The translations under genes were made by a program, and so were the position numbers. This document shows positions 20,420-25,736 of a DNA stretch of 39,068 nucleotides, in pieces; the first letter of the stretch is position 1; each line of letters opens with the position of its first letter. Under the pieces are notes generated by a model. That model worked only from the letters and a program-made list of their open reading frames with translations. It did no database searches and had not been told where the DNA came from. This stretch comes from a virus: IMG/VR virus record IMGVR_UViG_3300025418_001130, positions 1 through 39,068 of that record; one strand, given 5' to 3'.

Positions 20420-21286
20420 GTGGCAACAGCACAAGATGTATTAAATGTTGCCAGAAGCCAGATAGGTTTTATTGAAGGACCTATTAATGAAAATCCATAC
20501 GGAATTTGGTATGGTATTCCAAACGCTAGTTATTGTGCAATGGGAATTAGTTGGTGTTTTGCACAAGTAGGCTTGTCTAGTCTTGTTGCAGCACAAACTC
20601 CAAAAGGTTTTGCGTATTGTCCTGCAGGATTAAATTGGTTTCAACGCCAAGGATTAGTTGTAAATAAATATCAAGCACAGCCTGGAGACCTTGTTTTCTT
20701 TTCATGGGGAACTGGCGTAGCAGAGCATGTTGAAATTGTTGAGGCAGCATCTGCAGATGGATTAACAACAATTGGTTTTAATACTGGTGATCAAAATACA
20801 AGAGCAGCAGCAAATGGCGGCGGATGTTATAGAGAGCATCGCCCATATCTTTATGTCATGGCAATTGTAAGACCTAGGTATCCAGTGCCATTAAAACCTG
20901 TTTCAAAGGGTGTCACAAGCAAGAAGGCAACAGCAGGTGTAGCAGCCACTGGGACAGCCGCAGCAGCAACGGCAGCAGCATTGCATGGTACAGCAGCAAC
21001 AACCAGTTCAGCTAAAGTTGTTCCAACACCAACTCCGACAGCTTTTTATGCACCACCATTTCCTACAACATCAAAGTCTTTTGCCTTGGGTCAAACTAAT
21101 GATGCAGTTCTAACAGTTCAAAAAGCTCTTGTTAAAAAAGGACTTCTTGTAGCAAAATACGCCACAGGAACTATGAATACTCAAACTCAAGCAGCTCTTG
21201 CTATATTTGATAAAAAGGCGGGAATTATAGTAAAAGCAGGAGCAGTTCCACAAATAGTTTATGATACATTAAAGGGTTCACTATGA
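20420..21286 (+). CDS. Endolysin: CHAP-type amidase/peptidase with C-terminal peptidoglycan-binding domain
   Basis: 288 residues, GTG start 3 bases after the portal stop. N-terminal CHAP-like domain (about 5-150) with predicted catalytic C39 in NASYCAMGISWCF and H103 in AEHVEIVE, followed by an Ala/Thr/Pro linker (about 165-215) and a PG_binding_1-like domain (about 220-285, LGQTNDAVLTVQKALVKKG). It should cleave cell-wall peptidoglycan for lysis. No signal peptide, so it likely depends on a holin, a candidate for which is encoded immediately downstream with an ATGA overlap. A virion-bound entry lysin is the alternative, given its place among head genes. Confidence 0.85.
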   Translation: MATAQDVLNVARSQIGFIEGPINENPYGIWYGIPNASYCAMGISWCFAQVGLSSLVAAQTPKGFAYCPAGLNWFQRQGLVVNKYQAQPGDLVFFSWGTGVAEHVEIVEAASADGLTTIGFNTGDQNTRAAANGGGCYREHRPYLYVMAIVRPRYPVPLKPVSKGVTSKKATAGVAATGTAAAATAAALHGTAATTSSAKVVPTPTPTAFYAPPFPTTSKSFALGQTNDAVLTVQKALVKKGLLVAKYATGTMNTQTQAALAIFDKKAGIIVKAGAVPQIVYDTLKGSL

Positions 21287-21657: not shown

Positions 21658-21666
21658 TGCTATTAT
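21658..21666 (+). promoter_or_regulatory. Extended -10 promoter (TGC-TATTAT), near-leaderless
   Basis: TGC plus TATTAT lies 10 bases before the ATG at 21677. The predicted leader is about 4 bases and has no Shine-Dalgarno. Confidence 0.55.
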
Positions 21667-21676
21667 TTATTTAACT

Positions 21677-23077
21677 ATGAAATTACAAAAAACTTATTGG
21701 AACAATAGCGAATCATCAATGGCTTTGTCCTTTCCTATTTCTAAGGTAAATAAGGAAAAGAGAACAGTTTCAGGATTTGCTTCACTAGACAATGTTGATC
21801 GCCACGGCGATATAGTTACGGCGGATGCCAGCAAGAAGGCCTTTGAAAGATTCAGGGGAAATATCCGAGAAATGCATGGCCCATCTGCAGTAGGCAAGAT
21901 GATCAACTTTAAAGAGGATTCATTTTTTGATCCAGAGACTAATAAGAAATATAACGGAATTTATGTAACAGCCTATATCTCAAAGGGTGCACAGGATGCC
22001 TGGGAAAAAGTTCTTGATGGAACATATTCAGGTTTTTCAATTGGTGGAAACATCAATGATGCAAAGATGGAGAAGTCAGATGACGGAAGCGGACAAGATC
22101 GTCGTGTTATCCATGACTATGAATTGCATGAGCTTTCACTAGTAGACTCACCAGCAAATCAGCTGGCAAATATTTTTTCTATTCAGAAGATGGCAGAAGG
22201 CATTGTAACAGAAAATGTTTTCTGGTGTTCAACAGATGAAGTTGCTTCAACATCAACTGCAACAACTAAAAGTTGTGTAGTTTGCGATGGAGAAATGACA
22301 AACATTGGATGGGTAGAGCAAGCAGATGTTGAGAAGCTTGAAACAATTGAAAAAGTAATTGATTCTTATTTCAAGAAAGATGATGCTCCAACAGCAGCAC
22401 ATGCAGATACAGAGTCTGCAGCACCAGGTTTGACGGGAAATGTAATTGATAGCTCAGGCACAATCAATCTTTATCCTGATCAAAATAGCAAGAAAAAAGT
22501 CACGTTTGAGGACGGACTTAAAAAGAGTGATGATATTTCACTCAACGAAGGAGGTAACAAAATGGCAGAAGATACAAATGTTGAAATTGAGAAGTCAATT
22601 GATGCAGAGACTCCAGCCGAAGAAGTTTCATCTGTAGATGAGACATCAGATGCTACAACCGAAATTGAAAAGGCTGTAGAAATCTCTGAAGTTGAAGATA
22701 CACTTGATTTTACAAAGATGGTCACTGACCTCAAGACCTTCTTTGGTGAGTCTATTGAAAAGAATTATGCCCTACAATCAGCTACGATTGCAGATCTTCA
22801 GAAGGTTATTGATGTAACCACTGCAGAGCTTGCAAAGGTGAATGATTCATTTGAGGAAATGAAGAAGTCCCACACAGAGCTTGTAGAAAAGCATGAAGCC
22901 CTACAAAAGTCAGTTACGGATATGTATGGAAAGATTGACTATGTTGATCACCAGCTAAAGGGCTTTGAGTCCGCAACTGCAGTTAAGAAGTCTACTGATC
23001 TTTCGGGACCAGTAGAGGATACAAAAATCCAAAAAAGTATATGGCAAGGACACTTCCTCGGTGTTAATAACCTATAA
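21677..23077 (+). CDS. Prohead protease (XkdF/HK97-type) with C-terminal scaffold extension
   Basis: 466 residues. Residues about 15-180 form the S78-like protease: VSGFASLDNVDRHGDIV, catalytic His candidate H67 in REMHG, Ser candidates S118/S121 in TYSGFSIGG, and ELSLVDSPANQ. A linker carries a lone CVVC pair (about 202-205). From about residue 290 the protein is acidic, then coiled-coil, and ends IQKSIWQGHFLGVNNL, the expected look of a capsid scaffold. An in-frame Met at residue 296 follows a perfect Shine-Dalgarno, so a separate scaffold is probably also made from this gene. It should direct capsid assembly and then degrade the scaffold. Confidence 0.88.
   Translation: MKLQKTYWNNSESSMALSFPISKVNKEKRTVSGFASLDNVDRHGDIVTADASKKAFERFRGNIREMHGPSAVGKMINFKEDSFFDPETNKKYNGIYVTAYISKGAQDAWEKVLDGTYSGFSIGGNINDAKMEKSDDGSGQDRRVIHDYELHELSLVDSPANQLANIFSIQKMAEGIVTENVFWCSTDEVASTSTATTKSCVVCDGEMTNIGWVEQADVEKLETIEKVIDSYFKKDDAPTAAHADTESAAPGLTGNVIDSSGTINLYPDQNSKKKVTFEDGLKKSDDISLNEGGNKMAEDTNVEIEKSIDAETPAEEVSSVDETSDATTEIEKAVEISEVEDTLDFTKMVTDLKTFFGESIEKNYALQSATIADLQKVIDVTTAELAKVNDSFEEMKKSHTELVEKHEALQKSVTDMYGKIDYVDHQLKGFESATAVKKSTDLSGPVEDTKIQKSIWQGHFLGVNNL
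22548..22555 (+). promoter_or_regulatory. Internal Shine-Dalgarno AAGGAGGT for a nested scaffold
   Basis: A perfect anti-16S match, AAGGAGGT, lies inside the protease gene and ends 6 bases before an in-frame ATG at 22562. Confidence 0.85.
22562..23077 (+). CDS. Nested capsid scaffolding protein (internal in-frame start)
   Basis: 171 residues from the internal ATG, in frame with the protease (codon 296). Starts MAEDTNVEIEKSIDAETPAEE: an acidic N-terminal region of about 50 residues, a long coiled coil (about 70-130, SATIADLQKVIDVTTAELAK), and a basic capsid-facing C-terminus. The arrangement is that of lambda C/Nu3, where a scaffold is expressed in excess from within the protease gene. The perfect SD and ideal spacing are seen; separate production is inferred. 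Confidence 0.75.
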   Translation: MAEDTNVEIEKSIDAETPAEEVSSVDETSDATTEIEKAVEISEVEDTLDFTKMVTDLKTFFGESIEKNYALQSATIADLQKVIDVTTAELAKVNDSFEEMKKSHTELVEKHEALQKSVTDMYGKIDYVDHQLKGFESATAVKKSTDLSGPVEDTKIQKSIWQGHFLGVNNL

Positions 23078-23094: not shown

Positions 23095-23116
23095 AAGGTG
23101 GTGAAATAAATAAATG
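23095..23116 (+). promoter_or_regulatory. Long Shine-Dalgarno leader of the major capsid gene
   Basis: AAGGTGGTGA at 23095-23104 matches the full-length anti-SD complement AAGGAGGTGA at 9 of 10 bases, 9 bases before ATG. The same element with the same spacing precedes the major tail gene at 27482. Confidence 0.85.
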
Positions 23117-24280
23117 AGTAATGAACTTCTACAAAAAGTAATTGATACTACGGATCTCGGTTCGTCAGCAGTCAATGCATCAGGTGACGCATCTACCCTT
23201 TCAGGTAATGGTCTCCTATATCCAGATCAAGCTAACCGCTTCCTGGATTACATGTGGGATGCTACGATTCTTGCTAAGACAGCACGTACAATCCGCATGC
23301 GTTCAAACACAACTGAAATTGATCGTGTCGCAGTTGGACAACGTATCATGACAGTTGCACAGGAAGATAATCCACGCAACTTTGTTGCAGGTGGAACTCC
23401 AGATGGCTATACAAATGCTAATGGATCAACTTTCTCTGCTCAGAATGCACAATTTAACAAGGTATCGCTTACTACTCGTAAGCTACGTCTTGATTGGGAA
23501 CTTTCAGCAGAGTCTCTTGAAGACAATGTTGAGGGTCCAGATCTAGAAGACCACATTGCACGTTTGATGGCTACCCAAGCAGGTAACGATATTGAGGATG
23601 TTCTCATCAATGGTCTCGGTACTGGCTCAGGTTTGCTTTCAGCGTTCCAGGGTTTCCGTTCTTTGGCTCTTAACAACGCTCACGTTGTTGATGCTAATGG
23701 TAACGGTCTAGATAAGACAATTTTCAACGCAGCAATCAAGGCATTGCCTCGTAAGTACAAGCAACGTCGTAACCAACTTCGCTTCTTTACAGGATCTAAC
23801 TTGGTACAAGACTACTTGTTCAACCTAACCGCAGAGACTAGCTCTGGCTTTACCCCATTTGATATCGCTTCAGGTATCATCCGTGGTGATGTTGCAGCTA
23901 ACGACGGTGGTCCAGGTACAGTAACTCCATTCGCTTTCGGTATTCCAGTCATCAACGTTCCGTTGTTTGACGAGACCCGTTCAGGCGATTATGCAGGTGC
24001 TTCTGGTCTTCATGGCGAGATTCACTTGACATTCCCACAGAACTTCATCATTGGTATCAAGCGTGACGTAACAGTCTATCGTTTGTTCCAACCAAAGAAG
24101 GACACAATTGAGTATACACTCTACATTCGTGTTGGCTGTGTAATGGAAAACTACGATGCACACGTTATCGTTAAGAACGTTAAGGTTGCAGGTTCAGTTG
24201 GTGGAGCTCTTGGTTCAATAACCAATGGTTCTGGTATTACTGGTGGTGCTAACGCTGCTGGTTACACAACTACATACTAA
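23114..24280 (+). CDS. Major capsid protein (HK97 fold)
   Basis: 388 residues. Builds the icosahedral shell. N-terminal GNGLLYPDQANRFLDYMWDAT, then FNKVSLTTRKLRLDWELSAESLEDN, HIARLMATQAGNDIEDVLINGLGTG, and a late GIKRDVTVYRLFQPKKD block match the capsid type that accompanies PBSX/XkdF-like head modules. It sits directly after the protease/scaffold and before a terminator. Every arginine I checked is CGT or CGC, with no AGA, unlike most genes in the window; this and the long SD agree with very high expression. The first residues may be removed by the protease; no cleavage site was assigned. Confidence 0.93.
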   Translation: MSNELLQKVIDTTDLGSSAVNASGDASTLSGNGLLYPDQANRFLDYMWDATILAKTARTIRMRSNTTEIDRVAVGQRIMTVAQEDNPRNFVAGGTPDGYTNANGSTFSAQNAQFNKVSLTTRKLRLDWELSAESLEDNVEGPDLEDHIARLMATQAGNDIEDVLINGLGTGSGLLSAFQGFRSLALNNAHVVDANGNGLDKTIFNAAIKALPRKYKQRRNQLRFFTGSNLVQDYLFNLTAETSSGFTPFDIASGIIRGDVAANDGGPGTVTPFAFGIPVINVPLFDETRSGDYAGASGLHGEIHLTFPQNFIIGIKRDVTVYRLFQPKKDTIEYTLYIRVGCVMENYDAHVIVKNVKVAGSVGGALGSITNGSGITGGANAAGYTTTY

Positions 24281-24369: not shown

Positions 24370-24768
24370 ATGTCATTTTCAGATTTAAAAGTTACAGAAC
24401 TAAGAAAAGTTGCAGATTCATTTGGCGTTGATGTTGATGGATTAAAGACAAAACAAGAAATCATTGCTGCAATTGAAGAAGAAGGCATATCTTATCAGAT
24501 GTATGCCAAGTTTGATGGTGCTGAAAAACAAGAACCACAAATCTCAGAGATGGAAAAGGTTCAAAGAGAAAAGAAGATTCTCAAGCCTACAACTTCGGTT
24601 TTAGTAAAGATGGAAAGAATGAATCATTCTTACCAGACAGGTGGATTTACATTCACCTCAGAACACCCCTTCGTTGCTATGTCAGAGGCAGACGCACAGC
24701 GTATTTTTGACACACAGCCAGGGTTCCGCCTTGCGACTCCACGAGAGGCTCAAGAGTACTACGCATAA
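24370..24768 (+). CDS. Head-region protein with SAP/Rho-N-like N-terminal motif
   Basis: 132 residues from the ATG at 24370, chosen because AAAGGAA precedes it and it lies in the expected short leader. An in-frame ATG at 24352 would add six residues as a leaderless start. The N-terminus SDLKVTELRKVADSFGVDVDGLKTKQEIIAAI is a SAP/HeH/Rho-N type helix-extended loop-helix, a small nucleic-acid-binding fold. The C-terminus has TSEHPFVAMSEADAQRIFDT and RLATPREAQEYYA. Similar proteins follow capsid genes in many actinobacteriophages. Function is unknown; a head-decoration or connector-assembly role is inferred from position. Confidence 0.7.
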   Translation: MSFSDLKVTELRKVADSFGVDVDGLKTKQEIIAAIEEEGISYQMYAKFDGAEKQEPQISEMEKVQREKKILKPTTSVLVKMERMNHSYQTGGFTFTSEHPFVAMSEADAQRIFDTQPGFRLATPREAQEYYA

Positions 24769-24785: not shown

Positions 24786-25736
24786 TTGCAGACAATAGCA
24801 AACAACAGCCAAGTAAAAATAAAGTTAGAAGTATTCAGCGATGGAGTTCTAACCCAAGCAGATAGTAATCCAACAGTATCTTTATTTGATGCTGATAATG
24901 ATGCAACAGCTTTGACTGGTTTTTCTGGTTTGTCTGTTATAGATGAATCCCCAGCGGGTATATATTCTTTTCTATTAACCCCCGCAATTACAAGTGTAAA
25001 CCGAGTCCTAGAAGTACAATGGACATATACTCTTGGAGGAGTAACAGCGGTACAAACAGATTTTTACCGCATAGAATCTCCATATGCCACAGTATCTGAA
25101 GTCATTGACTTTCTAGGATTTGGATCAACACCATCAGATGACAATTATGTTGACCCAAAGCAAATTGCTAATGCTGAAAAAATGGCAAGAACAATAATTG
25201 AAGGTTATACAGGCGTTAAGTTTTATACATATTATGGCTCACAAGAAGTACGTGGAATTGGTTCAGACATTGTTGAGCTTACAGAAAGAATTTTGAGCAT
25301 TGATCAGGTTTATGAAAATGACTATGTAGTTATTGATAATACTTTGCAGCCGTACCTGAACACATTTGGGTTCGGAGTAGAAATAACTCCAACAGGAAAA
25401 GGTGTACGCATTGTGAACCCAGGTTGGGATGTTCAATACGACAATCAAGTTGATCCAACTGTTATGTACTATGGCAAATTCAGAGATAATGCAAGATACC
25501 GTTTTGTTGGGCAAATGGGTTATAAGTATGTGCCAGAAGATATTAAACAAGCTTCAATGCTTTTAATTCAAGATCTTCTTTCAAACGATTACAACTGGAG
25601 AAACAAATATTTGCAGAAAGTTGACCTCAGTGAAATTTCATTTGAAATGGCAAAGGGTGCATTTAACGGTACAGGCAATGTGACTGTTGATAATATCCTT
25701 GACCAATATCGCAACGTCAACATTGTGATAATCTAA
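24786..25736 (+). CDS. Head-to-tail adaptor (connector gp6-like)
   Basis: 316 residues from a TTG at 24786 preceded by AAGGGGG. N-terminal ~95 residues form a beta domain (VSLFDADNDATALTGF). The C-terminal part holds the connector signature YATVSEVIDFLGFG, ANAEKMARTIIEGYTG, then a beta segment and a final helix pair (IKQASMLLIQDLLSNDYNWRN) of gp6/gp15-type adaptors that dock under the portal. The extra N-terminal beta domain makes it longer than usual adaptors (about 100-200 residues). The stop overlaps the next start (TAATG). Confidence 0.75.
   Translation: MQTIANNSQVKIKLEVFSDGVLTQADSNPTVSLFDADNDATALTGFSGLSVIDESPAGIYSFLLTPAITSVNRVLEVQWTYTLGGVTAVQTDFYRIESPYATVSEVIDFLGFGSTPSDDNYVDPKQIANAEKMARTIIEGYTGVKFYTYYGSQEVRGIGSDIVELTERILSIDQVYENDYVVIDNTLQPYLNTFGFGVEITPTGKGVRIVNPGWDVQYDNQVDPTVMYYGKFRDNARYRFVGQMGYKYVPEDIKQASMLLIQDLLSNDYNWRNKYLQKVDLSEISFEMAKGAFNGTGNVTVDNILDQYRNVNIVII

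Follow-up and report, generated by a model that had tools for sequence, protein, structure and literature searches.

The gene at positions 21677–23077 (+) of the window, a virus record of 39,068 bases analysed as a whole, raises the question of whether a single prohead protease gene also encodes a separate capsid scaffold from a start codon in its interior. From the evidence set out below, we consider that this ORF of 466 codons is very probably a nested protease/scaffold pair encoding two co-terminal proteins. The features of the region are as follows.

21658..21666, +, extended −10-like box TGCTATTAT, proposed promoter, 10 nt upstream of ATG 21677
21677..23077, +, prohead protease-scaffold gene, full length (466 aa; Pfam and phrog matches)
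21737..22183, +, S78 protease domain, residues 21–169 (Pfam; AlphaFold2 model)
22208..22318, +, small strand-rich module with Cys, residues 178–214 (AlphaFold2 model; Cys pattern)
22548..22555, +, internal Shine-Dalgarno (SD) sequence AAGGAGGT, kept in relatives
22562..22564, +, internal start codon ATG (GTG in other clades), codon 296 of 466
22562..23077, +, nested gene, proposed scaffold protein (171 aa, 19.0 kDa, pI 4.4)
22709..22975, +, single long helix, residues 345–433 (89 residues), coiled-coil candidate (AlphaFold2, moderate confidence)
22976..23074, +, disordered C-terminal tail, candidate capsid-binding end (conserved W-x-G-x-F motif; model)
23114..24280, +, major capsid protein without delta domain (TIGR01554; phrog_1623)

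An internal start site in the protease gene

The original prediction had proposed an in-frame internal start with an SD inside the protease gene, located where the sequence turns acidic and coiled-coil and forming the strongest ribosome site of the head block, and all of these elements were recovered. ATG 22562 is in frame with the ORF 21677–23077, is separated from AAGGAGGT by a spacer of 6 nt, and belongs to a site directly preceding the acidic coiled-coil tail. The duplex energy of this site with the anti-SD tail was −13.6, the lowest among the 33 gene starts scored in the window (itself counted), followed by −11.3 at 24786, while the capsid gene scored −10.6. The scoring took ORF starts, so that some true starts may be further in, and the table entry at 24373, which is no start codon, was excluded from the 33.

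We then resampled codons with the protein sequence fixed. For L002, whose sequence equals that of the window gene, 3% of 200 draws produced a start this strong somewhere in the gene; for other relatives the share was up to 30%. Because such strength is reached in 3–30% of the draws, a single sequence is weak evidence and could reflect chance, and since resampling in the window gene alone was undecided, relatives were collected.

Conservation of the internal start in relatives

Searches of IMG/VR returned 80 loci for the window protein, 80 for the Wakanda protein and 35 for that of Samisti12 (8 of them repeats), to which four annotated phages were added. From these 191 loci (L002–L192), 184 were counted together with the window gene, giving 185 sequences and 148 distinct coding sequences (CDSs), which comprised a freshwater group (66), the L100 group (48), a Streptomyces-type group (29) and five divergent genes. 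Seven loci that were partial, duplicate or partial matches (L098, L099, L182, L184, L189, L190 and L191) were left out of the counts; on later inspection the site was present in six of them, and L099 stops before it. In the window-protein search, one of the six patterns spans the internal Met, and for 3 of the 80 loci (L017, L018 and L034) it is the only pattern matched exactly. The closest cultured relatives were Streptomyces phages such as Wakanda and Samisti12 (Stanwilliamsviridae), with ∼40–42% identity.

In all of the 148 distinct CDSs, the lowest-energy SD-start of the gene was the linker site just ahead of the acidic coiled-coil tail, with energies of −8.9 to −16.1 against a median of −6.4 for the second-best site of the gene. 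Its start codon was ATG in 87 and GTG in 61, and it lay at 55–68% of the gene length in every CDS except the truncated L047. The internal start occupied one alignment column in 143 CDSs; in the remaining five it fell elsewhere in the linker, which is rich in gaps. The expectation that SD and start would be kept among relatives was thus borne out in 148/148 distinct genes, under synonymous constraint, and an origin of the internal SD by chance from codon usage is ruled out by this conservation. We regard conservation in relatives as decisive for the reality of the internal start, as judged from sequence comparison. The nested gene was without annotation in the six cultured phage records examined, in line with the expectation that gene callers would miss it.

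Selection on the nucleotides of the internal site

Valine at the start position was encoded by GTG in 61 of 61 cases, while GTG made up only 90 of the 2330 Val codons elsewhere in the same genes (3.9%). A tree built from residues 1–200 (the protease part) implied about five changes between ATG and GTG, at least four of them on well-supported branches. At the first Gly codon covered by the SD, the 66 freshwater genes had GGA (59) or GGG (7), and never GGT or GGC, which made up 891 of the 1626 other Gly codons in those genes (55%); GGG could still form a G-U pair with the anti-SD. The residue before that Gly was Glu, Gln or Lys, with a codon of the form NAA in 66/66 freshwater genes. Synonymous identity at the SD codons and codon +1 exceeded expectation in three groups, and the third base of codon +1 was A in all 49 thinned freshwater genes. 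Equal or higher synonymous conservation was also found in other stretches of the gene, near its end and elsewhere, and the signal of the site is therefore specific by its content and not as a single peak. RNA structure at the start region was weak, ranking 9th of 1341 windows in the window gene, and the region fell within the least structured 10% of the gene in 47 of the 58 representatives. These comparisons indicate that selection acts on the nucleotides of the internal site.

The same observations bear on readings in which the site has another role. The SD-like stretch might act as a ribosome pause that aids folding of the protease, with no separate protein made, and its position in what is modelled as a disordered linker between two modules would suit such a role; pausing needs no start codon, yet Val at this position is always GTG, ATG and GTG interchange, codon +1 is constrained and the site is weakly structured, and we consider a pause very improbable. 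The near invariance of the EGG residues would fit a protein motif, EGGNxM, kept as a linker or cut site with the SD as a by-product, but such a motif would not account for a first Gly restricted to GGA and GGG in the freshwater genes, for the replacement of Glu by Gln or Lys with AA retained, or for Met and Val swapping as ATG and GTG only, which makes it the least probable of the alternatives that we weighed. A scaffold could also be made from an internal promoter and mRNA of its own, in the manner of UL26.5, which has a separate mRNA, rather than by internal initiation on the whole-gene mRNA. A loose −35/−10 match lies within 110 nt upstream in 28 of the 48 L100-group genes, but in none of the 66 freshwater and 29 Streptomyces-type genes, while an extended −10 occurs in 10 of the 66 freshwater genes and in 0/77 others; no internal promoter upstream of the internal start was conserved across the three groups, and the SD would be required either way, so that this route appears unlikely. 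Internal initiation at a selected SD and start codon is the reading that we carry forward.

The start of the full-length gene

The full-length start, ATG 21677, scored +1.6 and has no SD. The promoter-like box TGCTATTAT lies just upstream, and TGNTATTATTTATTTANNTATG has a single match in the window; a generic sigma-70 scan of the window did not include the box at 21658..21666 among its predictions. The pattern TGnTAnnAT-N10/11-ATG was found in 59 of 59 usable freshwater genes (0.3% of mononucleotide shuffles), and TTG-N3-N17-TAN3T-N6/7-ATG in 48/48 genes of the L100 group and 29/29 of the Streptomyces type; these patterns were picked after viewing the sequences, and their shuffle rates of 0.1–0.3% per pattern refer to mononucleotide shuffles only. 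A promoter-like box adjoins the full-length ATG in 136/136 usable genes of the three groups, ending 6–11 nt upstream, and a looser form was present in all five remaining divergent genes. No SD at −6 or lower was found at these box-led full-length starts.

Seven freshwater rows were skipped in this count, namely the truncated L047 and L078 and the SD-led L046, L048, L050, L055 and L056. The full-length starts of the latter five carry a moderate SD (−8.3 to −9.0) in place of the leaderless-type start, and the stronger internal SD is kept. Upstream of position 2995 in L046, the old box is retained ahead of a short upstream frame, and the SD-led start of the protease lies inside that frame.

A promoter at this position would give a leaderless or near-leaderless mRNA. 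The proposal that the full gene has a near-leaderless start fits with the conserved box 6–11 nt ahead of the ATG, and the full-length start is probably leaderless or near-leaderless. In mycobacteria, leaderless mRNAs are described as common and comparably robust (PMC4633059), and low output of the protease is therefore not implied.

Organization of the protease part

In Pfam, the gene product matched Peptidase_S78_2 (6.2e-07) and Peptidase_S78 (2.5e-05), both above the cut-off, over residues 21–169, and only S78 families were returned, with no S49 match up to an E of 1. Residues 1–465 aligned to positions 1–451 of 453 of phrog_9427 (head maturation protease, Stanwilliamsviridae-type phages; 1.9e-114). 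H67 and S121, which we take to be catalytic residues, were invariant in an alignment of 56 of the 58 representatives, that is, all except two Rhodococcus ones. The AlphaFold2 model of the full-length protein (mean pLDDT 64, pTM 0.37) predicts an ordered protease region, the strand-rich module, disorder at residues 235–343, the helix at 345–433 and a disordered tail. A Foldseek search of the full model against the PDB gave nothing at E ≤ 0.001, and the assignment of the protease fold therefore rests on Pfam. The CxxC of the Cys module between the protease domain and the internal start is lost in the L100 group, and the module is absent in phage NiceHouse.

Several other features were observed in this region. 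The window protease contains the motif h-x-K-[STAVM] 15 times, compared with 3.1 occurrences in shuffled sequences, and in relatives the motif returns at fixed columns; its positions include protease residues 5, 171, 332, 411, 438 and 453 and also the N-terminus of the major capsid protein near 23114–23140. The HK97 capsid protein is described as being cleaved at K103/S104 (PMC10275583), and for this reason the h-x-K sites may be maturation cut sites, while helical heptads could be a partial cause of the excess. A YPDQ motif lies in the protease linker (window 22469–22483) and also close to the capsid protein's N-terminus (capsid gene 23114–24280). Among genes with a readable capsid gene, 60 of 61 freshwater cases have it in both proteins (the exception is taken to be L047, which is truncated), and all 73 cases from the other two groups lack it in both. 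The portal gene and the protease gene have an endolysin gene (20420–21286) between them; lysis genes are uncommon at this location.

The internal product as a probable capsid scaffold

The internal product was 164–195 aa long with a pI of 4.05–4.58 across the 58 representatives, and most of them carry the W-x-G-x-F tail motif. A PDB sequence search gave mostly helical and coiled-coil matches. No convincing match to a known scaffold family was obtained in Pfam or phrog; Pfam GPO (0.0028, under its cut-off) and phrog_15087 (0.04) were returned, and coiled-coil composition may account for both.

The neighboring capsid protein aligned over residues 24–217 to positions 104–271 of 385 of TIGR01554 (4.4e-08). 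In this alignment it lacks the HK97-type N-terminal delta domain and appears to start about where mature HK97 starts, and a separate scaffold is therefore expected. No other scaffold candidate between the portal and capsid genes was annotated in the records of four relatives. HK97 proheads are reported to contain roughly 60 copies of the protease to 415 of the capsid protein (PMC12749128), which makes a supply of scaffold beyond the fusion protein plausible. Given the predicted fold of the tail, the N-terminus of the capsid protein and the lack of another annotated candidate, a scaffold is the best reading, and the internal product is most likely the capsid scaffold.

The separate product might instead be made in another capacity, for instance in the inner core or in controlling how the protease dimerises, and its lack of homology to any proven scaffold family would be compatible with this. 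Such a role appears unlikely to us, however, as the gene sits between those for portal and capsid, a region in which no rival scaffold candidate is annotated, the delta domain is missing from the capsid protein and the tail has a scaffold-like make-up.

Taking the internal product as the scaffold, we propose the following scheme. The 466-aa protease-scaffold fusion would come from initiation at ATG 21677, with the abutting promoter probably supplying a leaderless or near-leaderless mRNA, and the scaffold tail of the fusion would bring the S78 protease into the prohead. The strong SD at 22548–22555 would drive independent initiation at ATG 22562 and give a free acidic scaffold of 171 aa, in which an acidic, disordered segment is followed by one long helix and then by a conserved tail, the probable binding end for the major capsid protein. 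This product would supply scaffold for the delta-less capsid protein, scaffold would exceed protease, and the protease would remove it once assembly is done. The SD, the start codon and its frame, their conservation, the absent delta domain and the predicted fold are features of the sequences themselves; that the internal product is made, acts as the scaffold and exceeds the protease, and how it is removed, we infer.

Distribution among phages

Among cultured-phage proteases of the S78 type with a long tail, the internal site was the best SD-start in seven of eight, namely those of Wakanda, Samisti12, Francesca, Weasels2, L199, NiceHouse and the Alicyclobacillus phage MMB025, of which the first four were already within the 148. 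In Wakanda the internal start is a GTG at codon 263. The internal SD was weak in Francesca (−8.9) and NiceHouse (−9.0). In NiceHouse, where the linker is shorter, this best site precedes ATG 206, and L199 has an internal ATG 248 with an SD of −13.5. Polewnik, with an S78-like protein of 593 aa, had no strong internal SD (best −6.4), and the device is therefore not universal. SL25 (209 aa) and Cody (201 aa) were rejected as carriers, their proteases being too short for a scaffold tail. In L190 (2–2224) and L191 (1873–4116), ∼290 aa including DUF5824 are inserted between the protease domain and the scaffold tail, and a GTG start with an SD of −16.0 is still located at the tail boundary.

The head maturation protease of MMB025 (L194:2001–3572) has an internal GTG at codon 296 with an SD of −11.5, so that the device may reach Firmicutes phages. 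The relatives of MMB025 that were found comprised one apparently near-identical IMG/VR record and one distant phage (two records).

Comparison with known systems

The gene combines an N-terminal protease domain, an SD-led internal start in frame with the same stop, and a helical acidic C-terminal part, and the best reading by analogy is that a nested pair built on an HK97-type (S78) protease functions in the way of lambda C/Nu3 and herpesvirus UL26/UL26.5. Lambda C and Nu3 are arranged in frame and co-terminally. Published accounts describe the lambda protease and scaffold as coming from one gene (PMC8508860) and C as an S49 peptidase (PMC10695390). The window gene resembles this pair in encoding a protease and a probable scaffold together, with an internal in-frame start and a common stop, but differs in its S78 protease and in a full-length start that has no SD and looks near-leaderless. 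The herpesvirus protease presumably shares a common fold with the S78 protease of the window, and in both systems the shorter product, a predicted one in the window, is co-terminal with that of the protease gene. UL26.5 is described as a gene of its own that begins mid-UL26, with a product identical to the C-terminal 329 residues (PMC12474303), whereas here an SD would direct internal initiation.

In Mu, PaMx73 and KS10, a scaffold start is likewise reported in frame within the protease gene, with a putative Val-177 start and SD in PaMx73 (PMC4378225). Family searches showed no sequence relation of the window protease to the Mu-type genes, and in that report's account of them SD and start are not traced through a deep set of relatives, unlike here (PMC4378225). 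HK97 gp4 belongs to the same protease family as the window protease (S78, by Pfam). In HK97, the scaffold role is assigned to the first 102 residues of the capsid protein (PMC8508860), the delta domain that the window capsid protein lacks.

In-frame scaffold genes within protease genes are thus a known kind, represented by lambda, Mu, PaMx73, KS10 and the herpesviruses, and the variant lies in joining this layout to an S78 protease, to a capsid protein without delta domain and to a full-length start that is SD-free and probably leaderless. Our literature search, thin on subscription papers and partly off target, found no published internal scaffold start in this phage group. The two-mode device may be old, as Streptomyces, Rhodococcus and freshwater phages all retain both of its elements, and we see an even chance that large actinophages have long set their protease-to-scaffold ratio by pairing SD-free, leaderless or near-leaderless initiation with SD-driven internal initiation on one gene.

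At E ≤ 1e-10, 136 phage records matched the Francesca protease, 127 from Streptomyces and 9 from Rhodococcus. The nested gene, a predicted protein that has gone unannotated, would provide the apparently missing scaffold for this large group of phages and their freshwater relatives, and would extend the protease-scaffold arrangement known from lambda, Mu and the herpesviruses to an S78 (HK97-type) protease. Comparison of SD and start codons across relatives can reveal nested genes that gene callers overlook, and the control of protease and scaffold dosage becomes testable in cultured Streptomyces phages.
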